Source: Bosea sp. NBC_00550 (GTDB lineage: Bacteria > Pseudomonadota > Alphaproteobacteria > Rhizobiales > Beijerinckiaceae). From it: a stretch of DNA of 64,000 nt. Position 1 is the stretch's first letter, and every line of letters starts with the position of its first letter. The position numbers and the translations under genes were made by a program. The notes under the pieces are model-generated. The model made no database searches and was not told where the DNA came from. It worked only from the letters and a program-made list of their open reading frames with translations. The stretch spans positions 2,914,001-2,978,000 of the forward strand of contig NZ_CP102772.1 of the NCBI RefSeq assembly GCF_026020075.1. The letters run 5' to 3'. This document shows positions 35,551 to 40,151 of this stretch, in pieces.

Positions 35551-35819
35551 CACGTGTTTTCGCCCGCCCGCACTTGCGCGCGAGCGTTTTGAAATTCGAG
35601 GGGCAGCGGAGCGCCGCGAGGCGCGGGGGTATCGGGCCGCTTCCATTGAGCCAGGATGCGGCGCGGAAGGATTGAGCCACCTTCCGCACGCCCGTGGCGC
35701 TCCGCCTATCGGCGTTCTCATCTAGACTCCGGGCCGCGCTTCTACGGCTCTCCGGTTCCGGTCCCGCTCGCCTCGACGCCAGTTCGGCACGGAGCGCGCT
35801 GCGCTCCGCTTTGTCTCGT

Positions 35820-35865
35820 GCATCGGATGGTCCCGAAAAGTGGGTCGCACTTCCCGGTCCGATGC
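35820..35865. repeat. Palindromic repeat (GCATCGG...CCGATGC)
   Basis: Arms GCATCGG (35820-35826) and CCGATGC (35859-35865) around GGTCCCGAAAAGTGGGTCGC, a style of intergenic repeat widespread in Hyphomicrobiales. Confidence 0.6.
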
Positions 35866-36163
35866 CGGCCTCGTCGCGTCTCGGGTTGCAGGACCTTTCC
35901 CTTCGAGCCTCCCAGCGAGCTCCTCGCGCAGGGGCCGTAGTACCCCCAGAGCGGTGCCCCGAAGCCTCCCGGGACTGGCTTGCAAGGCCAGCCGCAGGCG
36001 CCGCCCCCATCCCGCCACACGACATGCCTCCGGATGGCTGCCCCTCGGGGATGAGGTGGGCCGAGGATAGGGGCGACACGGGAGGGCGGGGATAAGTTTT
36101 GTGAGGGCGACGCAGCATCGCCGCGCGCTCGTTAGAGCATGCTGATTTTGTACGGAACCACGC

Positions 36164-36442: not shown

Positions 36443-36703
36443 TCACGCCCCCTTGGCGATGGCCTGCTTCAGCCGCGCGACGGCCTCGGCCGCGCCGGAC
36501 CTGACGTTGATCTCCAGTGTCGGCGCCTCGCGCTCGATCATCTCGATGAGCACTTCGGGCGTGATCTCGGCCCGCGCCGCGGTGAGCTTCAGCACGGCAT
36601 TGGCGATGATGTTGGGCCAGTACGCCGCCCCGCCCTTGGCCAGCCCCTTGGCCTTGCGGCCCTCGAATTCCTGGGCGAGCTGTTCGGGGGTCTTTTTGGC
36701 CAT
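36443..36703 (-). CDS. Small conserved hypothetical protein
   Basis: An 86-residue protein starting MAKKTPEQLAQEFEGRKAKGLAKGG. It is charged and mostly helical with no transmembrane segment or recognisable domain. The start at 36703 is preferred over an in-frame ATG 16 codons upstream, because the protein-like composition begins there; the ribosome-binding site is weak. It lies just left of the AT-rich island and has the local high-G+C codon use, so it marks the conserved chromosome edge. Confidence 0.6.
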   Translation of the reverse strand: MAKKTPEQLAQEFEGRKAKGLAKGGAAYWPNIIANAVLKLTAARAEITPEVLIEMIEREAPTLEINVRSGAAEAVARLKQAIAKGA

Positions 36704-36856
36704 GGGGAGAGTTCCGAGAATCGCTTTGGGCGGTGAGCCTAGCGCATCCAACTGAAAAGGGGCGCGATGGTTATCGCTTCAGCCGGAAAGCGTGCCCGAA
36801 CTTCAGCTGTTAAAGGCGCCGCATCGGAATTTTCAAGTGCGGTCACGAAATGAACG

Positions 36857-36877
36857 ACTTAACGCATGGCGTTAAGT
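36857..36877. promoter_or_regulatory. 21-bp palindromic operator of the toxin-antitoxin island
   Basis: Perfect 9-base arms ACTTAACGC (36857-36865) and GCGTTAAGT (36869-36877) with a 3-base centre, 39 bases before the toxin start. This is the expected shape of an autoregulatory HigA operator. Confidence 0.7.
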
Positions 36878-36916
36878 AGTGTTGACGAGGCATCATCATC
36901 ATGGTACCGCTCGAAA

Positions 36917-37225
36917 ATGCTCATTGAGTTCTCGAACCCTCGCGTTGCGCTGATTGAGACAGATCGTGCTGCTGAAACCGGCTTGCCGGTAGCGGTCATT
37001 CAACAGGCGCGACAGCGCCTTAATCTGGCTCGGGCTGCTCCGGATTTAGATACCATGCTAGCTTGGAGAAGCCTTGGATATATCCCGGAAAGTGAGGCGA
37101 ACAAAATTCGAGGAGCAATTCTGATCGGTCAGCAATGGTCCCTCCAGATACAAGTCGACGAACGCAGTGTACCGCACAAATTAAGAATCATGACACTACA
37201 AGAGCACGCTCGAGGGGTTGCATAG
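36917..37225 (+). CDS. HigB-like (RelE/ParE superfamily) toxin
   Basis: A 102-residue protein resembling plasmid-maintenance killer toxins, which cleave mRNA on the ribosome. Supporting features are small size, a basic helix (AVIQQARQRLNLARAAPDLDTMLAWRSLGYI), a beta-rich end (WSLQIQVDERSVPHKLRIMTLQEHARGVA) and the antitoxin gene starting directly after its stop. The ATG at 36917 is preferred; an earlier in-frame ATG at 36866 lies inside the palindromic operator. The DNA is clearly AT-richer than its neighbours, suggesting transfer. Confidence 0.75.
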   Translation: MLIEFSNPRVALIETDRAAETGLPVAVIQQARQRLNLARAAPDLDTMLAWRSLGYIPESEANKIRGAILIGQQWSLQIQVDERSVPHKLRIMTLQEHARGVA

Positions 37226-38356
37226 ATGACAGACCTAAAAGTGGTCGGCATCGACCCGCCTGGAAACTATATAAAGATAGAACTTGACGCAAGGGGATGG
37301 TCTCAGCGGGATTTGGCCTTTATACTGGGTCAAACTGAGCAGCAATTGAACCCCCTTCTATCAGGGAAAAGAACAATTACGCCCGACATGGCGAGGTTGC
37401 TTGGAGATGCCTTCGGGGTATCTCCTCAGTTTTTTGCTAATCTGCAAAGCCAATACGACCTCGCGAATGCAAAAGTGCCAGACCCGGCGGTTCGCACCCG
37501 AGCTCGCCTTCAAGGAACATATCCAGTTCGCGATATGATACGCCGCGGGTGGATAAATGCCGCTGATGCGGCGCTTCTTCAGTTGCAGGTGGACCGGTTC
37601 TTCGAAGCAGACAACGACCACGGAACGCAGAAGCAAATTGCCTACGCAGCCAAGAAAACTCACTACAACACAACTAACAGCTATCAAATCGCGTGGGTCT
37701 ATCGCGTACGTCAGCTGTCAAGGCAGATAGTCACTCCGGAATTTTCGGCTGAGAAACTAAGGTCAAAACTTACTCAGATAAGATCTTTGATGATAGACCC
37801 TGAGTCCGTCCGCGATATACCGGAAATTTTGGTAAGCTGCGGAGTGAGATTCGTCATTGTCGAAACTCTTCCAGGCGCAAAAATAGATGGAGTTTGTACT
37901 TGGCTCGATGATAAAACACCCGTCATTGGAATGTCTACTCTTCACGATAGAATCGATAATTTTTGGTTTGTTTTGAGGCACGAGATAGAGCACGTCCTCT
38001 TAGGGCATGGAAAAGATAGCTTTGGGATTGTAGATCATCTTCAGGGTGACGCGCTCTCCGTAGGAGACGATATCGAAGAGATTGAGAGAATAGCAAATAT
38101 AGCGGCAGGAGAATTTTGCGTTCCTAGCAAAAAAATGGACTCGTTTTACGCCAGGAAGCATCCGTATTTTTCGGAAAGGGACGTTGTTGGCTTTGCCGCT
38201 CTGATGGAAGTTCACCCCGCAATTGTAGTCGGGCAGTTACAGAGGCGAATGGATAGGTATGATTATTTACGAAAGTACCAAGTTCCTGTCCGTCGATATG
38301 TGATCGAGCGAGCTGTCACTGATGGCTGGGGTCACGTGGCAAAAGCCGAACTTTAG
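37226..38356 (+). CDS. HigA-type antitoxin fused to ImmA/IrrE metallopeptidase
   Basis: A 376-residue two-domain protein. Residues about 10-70 form an XRE/HigA helix-turn-helix (GWSQRDLAFILGQTEQQLNPLLSGKRTITPDMARLLGDAFGVSPQFF). The C-terminal half is an ImmA/IrrE-type zinc peptidase with H252-E253-x-x-H256 (RHEIEHVLLGHG) and a downstream glutamate-containing helix (RIANIAAGEFCVP). It should bind the operator at 36857 and neutralise the toxin; the peptidase may cut a partner protein. The start abuts the toxin stop (TAG ATG). AT-rich codon use marks it as acquired. Confidence 0.88.
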   Translation: MTDLKVVGIDPPGNYIKIELDARGWSQRDLAFILGQTEQQLNPLLSGKRTITPDMARLLGDAFGVSPQFFANLQSQYDLANAKVPDPAVRTRARLQGTYPVRDMIRRGWINAADAALLQLQVDRFFEADNDHGTQKQIAYAAKKTHYNTTNSYQIAWVYRVRQLSRQIVTPEFSAEKLRSKLTQIRSLMIDPESVRDIPEILVSCGVRFVIVETLPGAKIDGVCTWLDDKTPVIGMSTLHDRIDNFWFVLRHEIEHVLLGHGKDSFGIVDHLQGDALSVGDDIEEIERIANIAAGEFCVPSKKMDSFYARKHPYFSERDVVGFAALMEVHPAIVVGQLQRRMDRYDYLRKYQVPVRRYVIERAVTDGWGHVAKAEL

Positions 38357-38371
38357 GAGGCAATAGATAGA

Positions 38372-38857
38372 ATGGCCACTTTTGCAGAGCAGATGCAGAA
38401 AATATTCGATCGCTATAATGCCGAAGTTGATCCTAATCCGGTATCTCTTGATGAGGTTGCCGCTTGGGCTTTGCAAAATGGCCTGTATCGTCCAGAGCCA
38501 CGCGACGTAGCCAAGCTATGCCGCGATGCACTTGCCGAAAGTCTGCGGCAAGAGAAGCGAGTGGACGAGAAGGGGCGCAAGTACCGCGCAAAACATTCCG
38601 TCAAAACCAATATCGGGGGAAGCCAGTTGAGCCTCTGGGCAGATATCGACAAAGCGCCCCGATTGTTCATGGAAAAATCATTTGCACAGCGCCGAAAATC
38701 AGTTGTCGATGACTGCTTCCAAGTAAAACAAGACGTTGACCACTACAACGATCAACACCCCGACGATACTCCAATTCCGCTTGTTTTAGATTTTACAGAT
38801 GACGTTGCAGAAATTGAAGCCGCTGGCCGCAAAGGACGCGAAGACGACGTTGCCTGA
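38372..38857 (+). CDS. Unknown protein, third gene of the toxin-antitoxin island
   Basis: A 161-residue protein that I do not recognise. The start follows AGGAGG and lies 16 bases after the antitoxin-peptidase gene, so all three genes form one operon. It has a helical N-terminus (MATFAEQMQKIFDRYNAEVD), a basic middle (RQEKRVDEKGRKYRAKHSVK) followed by GGSQLSLWADI, and an acidic end (DFTDDVAEIEAAGRKGREDDVA). It could be a substrate, regulator or chaperone of the peptidase or toxin. No membrane segment or signal peptide. Confidence 0.75.
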   Translation: MATFAEQMQKIFDRYNAEVDPNPVSLDEVAAWALQNGLYRPEPRDVAKLCRDALAESLRQEKRVDEKGRKYRAKHSVKTNIGGSQLSLWADIDKAPRLFMEKSFAQRRKSVVDDCFQVKQDVDHYNDQHPDDTPIPLVLDFTDDVAEIEAAGRKGREDDVA

Positions 38858-38902
38858 GGCGAACACCCGGGTTTCTTATCGGCCTTGACTCCCGCCCCCT
38901 CA

Positions 38903-38964
38903 CCATCCTACCCCCATCGACGGGACACGCCCCCCCAACGGGGCGCGCCCATCTGTAAGGATGG
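38903..38964 (+). ncRNA. Structured serC leader (serC RNA motif-like)
   Basis: CCATCCT (38903-38909) is perfectly complementary to AGGATGG (38958-38964), which contains part of the serC ribosome-binding site. Between them lies a nested hairpin CGCCCC (38928-38933) / GGGGCG (38940-38945). A leader RNA called the serC motif is known upstream of alphaproteobacterial serC-serA operons; I cannot verify the exact match. Confidence 0.5.
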
Positions 38965-38972
38965 AGACATCG

Positions 38973-40151
38973 ATGGCGAACACCGCACCGACCACGCGCC
39001 CGCGCGTGCCTAACTTCTCGTCCGGCCCCTGCGCCAAGCGCCCCGGCTGGACCCTCAAGGGCCTTGCCGACGCTCCGCTCGGCCGCTCGCACCGCGCCAA
39101 GATCGGCAAGGACAAGCTGAAGGCCGCGATCGACCTCACCCGCGAGGTGCTGCAGATCCCCGCGGATTACCGCATCGGCATCGTGCCCGCTTCCGACACC
39201 GGCGCCGTCGAGATGGCGCTGTGGAGCCTGCTCGGCGCCCGCGGCGTCGACATGGTCAGCTGGGAGAGCTTCGGCGCCGGCTGGGTCACCGATGTCGTCA
39301 AGCAGCTCAAGCTTTCCGACGTCCGCACCTTCGACGCCCCCTATGGCGAACTGCCGAACCTGCGGAAGGTCGACACCAAGAACCGCGACGTCGTCTTCAC
39401 CTGGAACGGCACCACCTCCGGCGTGCGCGTCGTCGATGCCGGCTGGATCGCCGATGACCGGGAGGGGCTGACCATCTGCGACGCCACCTCCGCCGCCTTC
39501 GCCGAGCGCCTCGACTGGCAAAAGCTCGATGTCACCACCTTCTCCTGGCAGAAGGTGCTCGGCGGCGAGGCCGCGCATGGCATGATCGTGCTCTCGCCCC
39601 GCGCGGTCGAGCGGCTGTTGACCTACAAGCCGGCCTGGCCGCTGCCGAAGATCTTCCGCATGACCTCTGGCGGCAAGCTGATCGAGGGCATCTTCACGGG
39701 CGAGACGATCAACACGCCCTCCATGCTCGCGGTCGAGGATTATCTCGATGCGCTGAACTGGGCGAAGAAGGTCGGCGGGCTCGACGGGCTGGTGAAGCGC
39801 GCCGACGCCAACGCCCGCGTCATCGCCAAGTTCGTGCGCGAGAACGACTGGATCGACTTCCTCGCCGTGAAGCCGAAGACGCGCTCCAACACCTCGGTCT
39901 GCCTCAAGTTCACCGACCCGGCCGTCACCGCCCTGCCGGCGGACGCGCAGGCGGCCTTCGCCAAGCAGGTCGTCTCGATCATCGAGAAGGCCGGCGCCGG
40001 CTACGACCTCGGCCATTACCGCGACGCCCCTCCCGGCCTGCGCATCTGGTGCGGCGCGACCGTGCAGGCGCGCGACGTCAAGGCGCTGTTGCCCTGGATC
40101 GAATACGCCTTCGCCGAGGCCAAGGCCGGCTTGAGCAAGAAGGCGGCATAA
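38973..40151 (+). CDS. serC: Phosphoserine aminotransferase
   Basis: A 392-residue PLP enzyme that transaminates 3-phosphohydroxypyruvate to O-phosphoserine. It is the alphaproteobacterial type beginning [26 protein letters not shown]; the PLP lysine lies in [15 protein letters not shown]. The start at 38973 is placed six bases after the GGATGGAG ribosome-binding site rather than at an ATG four codons earlier that overlaps that site. serA follows after a 202-base gap with a palindrome. Confidence 0.96.

Follow-up and report, generated by a model that had tools for sequence, protein, structure and literature searches.

The window analysed here is a 64,000-nucleotide stretch of the genome of Bosea sp. 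NBC_00550 (contig NZ_CP102772.1, positions 2,914,001 to 2,978,000, forward strand). It contains three co-directional genes on the + strand, designated A, B and C, which form an AT-rich island upstream of serC. We propose that A-B-C is a three-gene anti-phage module, a diverged cousin of the Escherichia coli system PD-lambda-2, which lies in a defence-rich slot and works by the mechanism described below; belief and doubt are about equal for this reading as a whole. As judged by sequence comparison, the locus is probably a defence module whose active part is B or C rather than A. The linkage of the genes, the protease motif of B, the loss of motifs in A under selection, the conserved C-terminal ends, and a slot with partly defence-like cargo were all observed directly. 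A HigB gene paired with a HigA-ImmA gene is already known, as is the idea of defence systems derived from toxin-antitoxin (TA) systems. Within a limited literature search, the orphan third gene, the clade-wide loss of HigB motifs under selection, the alanine C-terminal ends and the serC slot appeared to be new.

An orphan gene linked to a HigA-ImmA fusion

The sequence-only reading had described an AT-rich island of three tightly spaced co-directional genes, and both the composition and the open reading frame (ORF) coordinates bear this out. The G+C content of the island (36866-38857) is 49.2% versus 67.3% in the rest of the window, and the six lowest-G+C segments of 1992 bases, taken in steps of 100, all overlap the island. 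The stop codon of gene A (36917..37225, +) is directly followed by the ATG of gene B (37226..38356, +). A gap of 15 bases separates B from gene C (38372..38857, +), and the ribosome binding site of gene C, AGGAGG (38355..38360, +), identified from the sequence, overlaps the stop codon of B.

Gene B encodes a HigA-type helix-turn-helix (HTH) domain fused to a zinc protease of the ImmA/IrrE type (M78), as the antitoxin-peptidase fusion proposed earlier implied. It matches the Pfam families HTH_3 (E-value = 7.1e-9) and Peptidase_M78 (E-value = 1.3e-6), PF06114 scoring 28.6 bits for a gathering score of 22. The NCBIfam HigA model TIGR02607 scores 45.7 bits (E-value = 4.4e-12), just below its cut-off of 47.7, and B also matches HigA structures by sequence. 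Against the PADLOC model PD-Lambda-2_B, B exhibits an E-value of 7.8e-45 (151.8 bits), with an alignment covering model positions 61 to 386 of 402 and residues 13 to 351 of the 376 of B. H252, E253 and H256 of the HExxH zinc motif (HEIEH, residues 252-256), together with D270 and E287, are invariant in all 28 aligned rows, the window included.

The 161-aa product of gene C belongs to an orphan family with a confidently predicted fold. It exhibits no match at E-values up to 1 in Pfam, NCBIfam, PHROG or PADLOC, and 44 of its homologues yield no convincing Pfam match and no SecB family at E-values up to 0.1. A protein search returned 316 C homologues among 385 candidates, of which the best 120 are listed. 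C was found in 3 of 61, 7 of 289 and 9 of 297 genomes across searches, corresponding to 16 distinct genomes; further loci were identified in GTDB contigs (20), viral contigs of IMG/VR (9) and plasmids (3). In all 16 genomes B immediately precedes C, and it does so in 17 of the 20 contig loci, all nine viral contigs and all three plasmids. The sequence-only reading had taken the third protein to be part of the module, and C is indeed not a gene that occurs mostly away from HigA-ImmA genes: it adjoins one in 45 of the 45 loci with room to see, these loci being partly dependent (L024 and L035 are apparently one contig, L036 to L038 are near-copies, and the genome collections may overlap). In the three loci outside this count (L019, L026, L029) the C match starts within 243 bases of the contig end. 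Conversely, close homologues of B (E-value <=4e-94) are present in 8 of 385 genomes of the class, with C beside B in all eight, and no C was found in the fetched DNA of the nine next-best B loci (L100-L108, E-values of 4e-27 to 8e-18).

The presence of an HTH and an M78 protease in one protein, together with a palindrome upstream of the operon, could also be read as a switch of the ImmA/ImmR type, in which B would be a repressor-protease that responds to infection or damaged DNA by regulating C or adjacent genes, without a killing step. ImmA is described as required to inactivate the ICEBs1 repressor ImmR, and HTH-COG2856 fusions have been predicted to be regulators, in the relevant part of a comparative genomics study (PMC2701414). 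However, no integrase gene is seen in the 2.2-kb insert, the operon has no separate repressor, and its location is a slot with much defence-like cargo. We consider such a switch unlikely.

A HigB fold without its catalytic motifs

The anti-phage reading that we favour assigns to A a role other than that of a toxin. As first read, ORF A extends from 36866 to 37225 on the + strand. It probably starts at 36917 (M18) rather than at 36866, since an in-frame methionine is found there in the aligned A proteins, the residues preceding it are not conserved, and the ATG at 36866 lies inside the palindrome. The alignment comprises 22 A proteins, 11 of the clade that includes the window A (the "window clade") and 11 others, cut at the methionine matching 36917 before alignment and all possessing it; ATG is the codon in the 20 starts checked.

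A exhibits the RelE/HigB fold. The C-terminal D-x-H of HigB and its conserved arginine are present in all 11 of the other proteins and in none of the 11 window-clade proteins: the window A and ten clade members lack both the terminal D-x-H and the QWR arginine. Gene A is nevertheless under purifying selection in the window clade. Having lost the catalytic motifs while still being selected, the window-clade A is probably not a ribonuclease toxin. Of the earlier proposal that A is a toxin, the fold thus stands, and an active toxin does not fit the window clade.

Much of this locus recalls the HigBA/GraTA systems, namely the HigB fold of A, the HigA-like HTH of B and half-sites of the operator. 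The palindrome ACTTAACGC-ATG-GCGTTAAGT (36857..36877, no strand assigned) is a perfect 9-base inverted repeat, the ATG at 36866 being its 3-nt spacer, and its TTAACG/CGTTAA sequences resemble the half-sites of the GraA operator (PMC6393540). In 8 of the 11 window-clade loci a palindrome built on TTAAC is found 60 to 65 bases 5' of the aligned A start; the remaining three (L015, L016, L030) have imperfect palindromes, as judged by eye. It is absent from all 11 non-clade loci, some of which carry different palindromes. Directly after the palindrome lies a probable -35 box recognised from sequence, TTGACG (36882..36887, +); in seven of the 11 window-clade loci a TTGAC lies 35 to 37 bases 5' of the A start, and no -10 box was recognised upstream of A in the window. 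The palindrome is a candidate operator for the HTH of B. In contrast to HigBA/GraTA, A here is without the HigB catalytic motifs, a protease is fused to the antitoxin, and there is a third gene.

These likenesses, and the D-x-H tail kept in 19 relatives, would suit an ordinary type II TA system, in which A would cleave mRNA as an active HigB-like interferase and B would be its antitoxin, with C and the protease domain adjusting release. The HigB fold, the HigA-type HTH and the HigA-like operator are all as expected for it. The loss of the terminal D-x-H and of the QWR arginine in the 11 window-clade A proteins is not: the active-site cleft of GraT is described around His92, with a role for the C-terminal histidine (PMC6393540). 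Moreover, in E. coli PD-lambda-2, B alone is reported to be toxic and A to rescue (Vassallo et al. 2022, PMC9519451), so that there the toxic part is B and the neutraliser A. An ordinary type II system is therefore decidedly unlikely.

Both A and C of the window terminate in alanine (RGVA and DDVA, respectively). Among the best 120 of the 316 C homologues, 114 end in Ala-Ala (108) or Val-Ala (6), and so do 25 of 32 more varied locus rows, while the residues before this end are poorly conserved. The same ends are found in 8 of 11 window-clade A proteins and in 0 of 11 proteins of the D-x-H group. As a background, they are exhibited by none of 28 B proteins and by 2 of 58 other ORFs of the serC slot. 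The ends of C and of the window-clade A resemble ClpXP degrons, a likeness that is suggestive; C and the motif-less A may thus be short-lived.

A variable slot upstream of serC

The island occupies an insertion slot between two conserved genes. The right flank gene (38961..40151, +) is named serC from the Rfam leader RNA RF00517 (38918..38969, +, 63.1 bits, E-value = 7.4e-13), on which the name rests, its product having no Pfam match at 1e-3. The left flank gene (36443..36751, -) encodes a conserved protein of 102 aa with homologues of 62 to 93% identity in 15 of 20 same-genus regions; it too has no Pfam match at 1e-3. The slot ends on the right at CTTGACT, from which a segment that is likely to be the serC promoter and leader (38884..38960, +) is conserved. 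Each of the 29 other same-genus loci in a first set matches this segment, and in 27 of them the match starts within three bases of one common position; in the other two, one match starts earlier and one is cut by a contig end. In an alignment of 21 loci the similarity begins at the same CTTGACT in every locus, and CTTGACT likely contains the -35 box of serC. One hairpin pair of the leader shows four standard pair types in the 49 loci parsed, 49 of 49 (5 not parsed). The sequence-only reading had noted neither integrase nor repeat border, which holds as far as the insert was read; the right edge is nonetheless sharp and common to relatives. The right-hand boundary of the cassette is fixed at a host promoter, no integrase was seen within it, and recombination in the conserved flanks would suffice for its exchange.

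To the left of this edge the DNA varies strongly, the slot (36752-38884) being hypervariable in the genus. The comparison covered 53 same-genus loci, the window among them, for which 900 bases or more were available. Of these, 41 are AT-rich, the 800 bases next to the edge containing <60% G+C, and the AT-rich runs extend over 0.2 to 2.6 kb. Only two pairs share more than 200 bases of upstream DNA among the 28 first-set loci with 1.5 kb upstream. The 61 AT-rich ORFs of at least 90 aa from 41 loci (the window excluded) fall into 55 families by single linkage (blastp, 1e-5). In a PADLOC search at 1e-3, 11 of 20 cargo proteins, from 9 of 14 loci, exhibit matches, which include a KAP NTPase (PDC-S20, E-value = 2.6e-87), NsnA/GmrSD, a PD-T4-6-like kinase, an AriA/GajA-like ATPase, PDC-M19A/B and PDC-M34A/B. 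Also among these matches is the reverse transcriptase of the DRT9 type (1.8e-154) that fills the slot in L124 (2056-3600). Four more cargo loci were searched with Pfam only and gave DUF3800, trypsin, D12 methylase and no match, respectively. In a second set of 24 cargo proteins, 195 PADLOC families were matched in total and 3 proteins are OLD/AriA/GajA-like. Some cargo is without any family match (e.g. L123, L129, L140).

We read the serC slot as a defence hotspot with conserved flanks and variable cargo, which answers to the association with defence islands raised by the sequence-only reading. It is comparable to the core defence hotspots described for Pseudomonas aeruginosa (PMC10250203) in being a fixed chromosomal site with varying defence cargo, and differs in that a small AT-rich insert here lies against the likely serC promoter. 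The serC slot was not found as a defence site in our limited search of the literature.

Only one other carrier of the module (G017) exists among 36 same-genus genomes, with the module in the same slot; it accounts for three of the 61 ORFs. Between the window and G017, synonymous sites of B and C are saturated, versus a synonymous divergence (dS) of 0.31 for serC; the two modules therefore likely arrived separately. A self-maintaining addiction cassette with no defence role, kept because its loss is harmful, would agree with the TA ancestry and with the copies on three plasmids and nine IMG/VR contigs, but it is very improbable in a slot that holds many unrelated families (55 among 61 ORFs), exhibits PADLOC matches in 9 of 14 scanned loci and has no AT-rich cargo in 12 of 53 loci.

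A G+C-rich repeat lies at 35650-36050 in the window, and the genome contains three more copies of about 400 bases (96, 96 and 82% identity). In several relatives, ORFs that resemble this repeat by eye separate the left flank gene from the cargo.

Relation to PD-lambda-2 and proposed mechanism

The anti-phage reading leans on a comparison with PD-lambda-2, the closest system so far described, with which the window shares the order of a HigB-like gene, a HigA-ImmA fusion and a third gene, as well as the match of B to PD-Lambda-2_B (7.8e-45). Two E. coli loci (L176, L177) display the PD-lambda-2 order as a HigB family gene, an ImmA/IrrE gene and a beta family protein. The third component differs: that of PD-lambda-2 is a beta family (P4 beta-like) protein with a model of 374 positions, and the 161-aa C of the window is unrelated to it. 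Compared with beta-type proteins (four, and one probably spurious ORF), C gave a best blastp E-value of 3 and an hhalign probability of 0.5%. PDLC03983, the PD-lambda-2 C family, is absent from the 6.27-Mb host genome and was found in 7 of 398 genomes scanned. Window A also differs, having no PD-Lambda-2_A match at E-values up to 1; PDLC03981 (PD-Lambda-2_A) is absent from the host genome and does match in G505, a carrier of PD-lambda-2-type B and C. The system thus resembles PD-lambda-2 and, by its sequences, is not a member of it as defined.

A RelE gene beside a COG2856-Xre (HTH-zinc protease) fusion was predicted in 2009 by comparative genomics to be a multi-component TA system (PMC2701414). 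Those operons share with the window a RelE-family gene adjoining such a fusion; in them RelE is considered the toxin, and the part of that study dealing with them mentions neither a C-like third gene nor a loss of the active site of A. The CmdTAC (toxin-antitoxin-chaperone) system is likewise a TA-derived abortive infection system of three genes (PMC9519451), and differs by its SecB-like third component, no SecB match being exhibited by the 44 C homologues.

The PD-lambda-2 reports and the 2009 prediction, taken with the disarmed A, the intact protease motif and the alanine C-terminal ends, make a TA module with reversed roles the simplest reading. The HTH of B would bind the palindrome and keep the operon low. 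A, with its HigB fold and lost RNase motifs, would bind B and hold it inactive, by analogy with PD-lambda-2. The C of PD-lambda-2 is reported to be needed for defence against lambda vir and not for neutralising (PMC9519451); by this precedent, though the C proteins are unrelated, C may be an infection-sensing or licensing partner. A and C would be short-lived through their Ala-Ala-type ends. When a phage stops host expression, A would be depleted and B, through its intact zinc-protease motif, would act on a cellular target, so that the cell is arrested before phage maturation.

PD-lambda-2 presents a puzzle, in that toxicity comes from the presumed antitoxin and its neutralisation from the presumed toxin. 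The window clade resembles a natural experiment on this puzzle: the active-site motifs of A are gone and the protein is still selected, which opens a role reversal to direct test. The module further contributes C, a closely linked protein family whose predicted fold has no clear counterpart among solved structures, and the serC slot offers, within one genus, a sample of defence-like genes. More specifically, and only tentatively, we suggest that in a single clade a HigB lost its active site and gained a degron-type tail, becoming the short-lived antitoxin of its own former antitoxin, the HigA-ImmA protease B, which turned into the toxic effector; C, a new protein family, would couple the pair to phage infection, and the whole would reside in a one-cassette serC defence slot that is apparently unreported.

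Several observations weigh against the anti-phage reading. The B proteins of PD-lambda-2 and of the present system are joined by very long branches in the tree, the window B being 25% identical to the PD-lambda-2 B of L048 and lacking its N-terminal extension. Transferring roles from PD-lambda-2 is risky, because B is distant, A matches a different model and C is unrelated. An alanine end, taken alone, does no more than suggest a degron. The ratio of nonsynonymous to synonymous divergence of A between the window and its two nearest relatives is 0.28 and 0.41, at dS of 1.5 to 1.8. Within the window clade, A of L030 still ends in histidine, and part of the R-x-N motif persists in L015 and L030, both of which lack the GAA tail. 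In L005 a stop codon truncates A. Outside the clade, the HigB-like D-x-H tail persists in 19 relatives (with one extra serine in L185), and in those A may be a true toxin. In L032 and L033 a different HigB-sized ORF, which overlaps the B start and has no D-x-H end, stands in the place of A, which might mean that the active site was lost a second time, independently. No A gene was found in six B-C loci (L003, L008, L009, L025, L056, L060), so A is not always needed; L179 and L184 were joined to this A-less group in the tree on weak grounds. In the six loci a divergent transposase-like gene is located about 70 to 125 bases upstream of B. As to C, the 120 listed homologues are close relatives and not independent, and the Thauera plasmid pTX1 (L059, 9659-11324) has A and B intact with a fragment of C (residues 107-149 matched), possibly a natural loss of C. 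As to the slot, 12 of the 53 loci have no AT-rich cargo, 5 of the 14 PADLOC-scanned cargo loci are without a match, and a control of nine upstream genes and serC (one further upstream candidate left out) gave one match in ten proteins (E-value = 2.2e-6). The 24-protein set was tallied by family, not by matching protein, and a PADLOC match is no proof of defence since the library holds broad folds (AAA, kinase, nuclease).

The transposase-like gene encodes about 296 aa, is 53 to 75% identical to the L056 copy, was partly seen in three loci, and is annotated as IS1 family in L060. It may move the module or belong to it. The genome of Achromobacter phage CF418P1 (L058, 7666-9590) exhibits the A-B-C order with an atypical A ending in DTVH. 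On plasmids, other defence genes lie about 10 kb or less from the module, namely Shedu in L056 and genes for type I restriction and Abi in L057.
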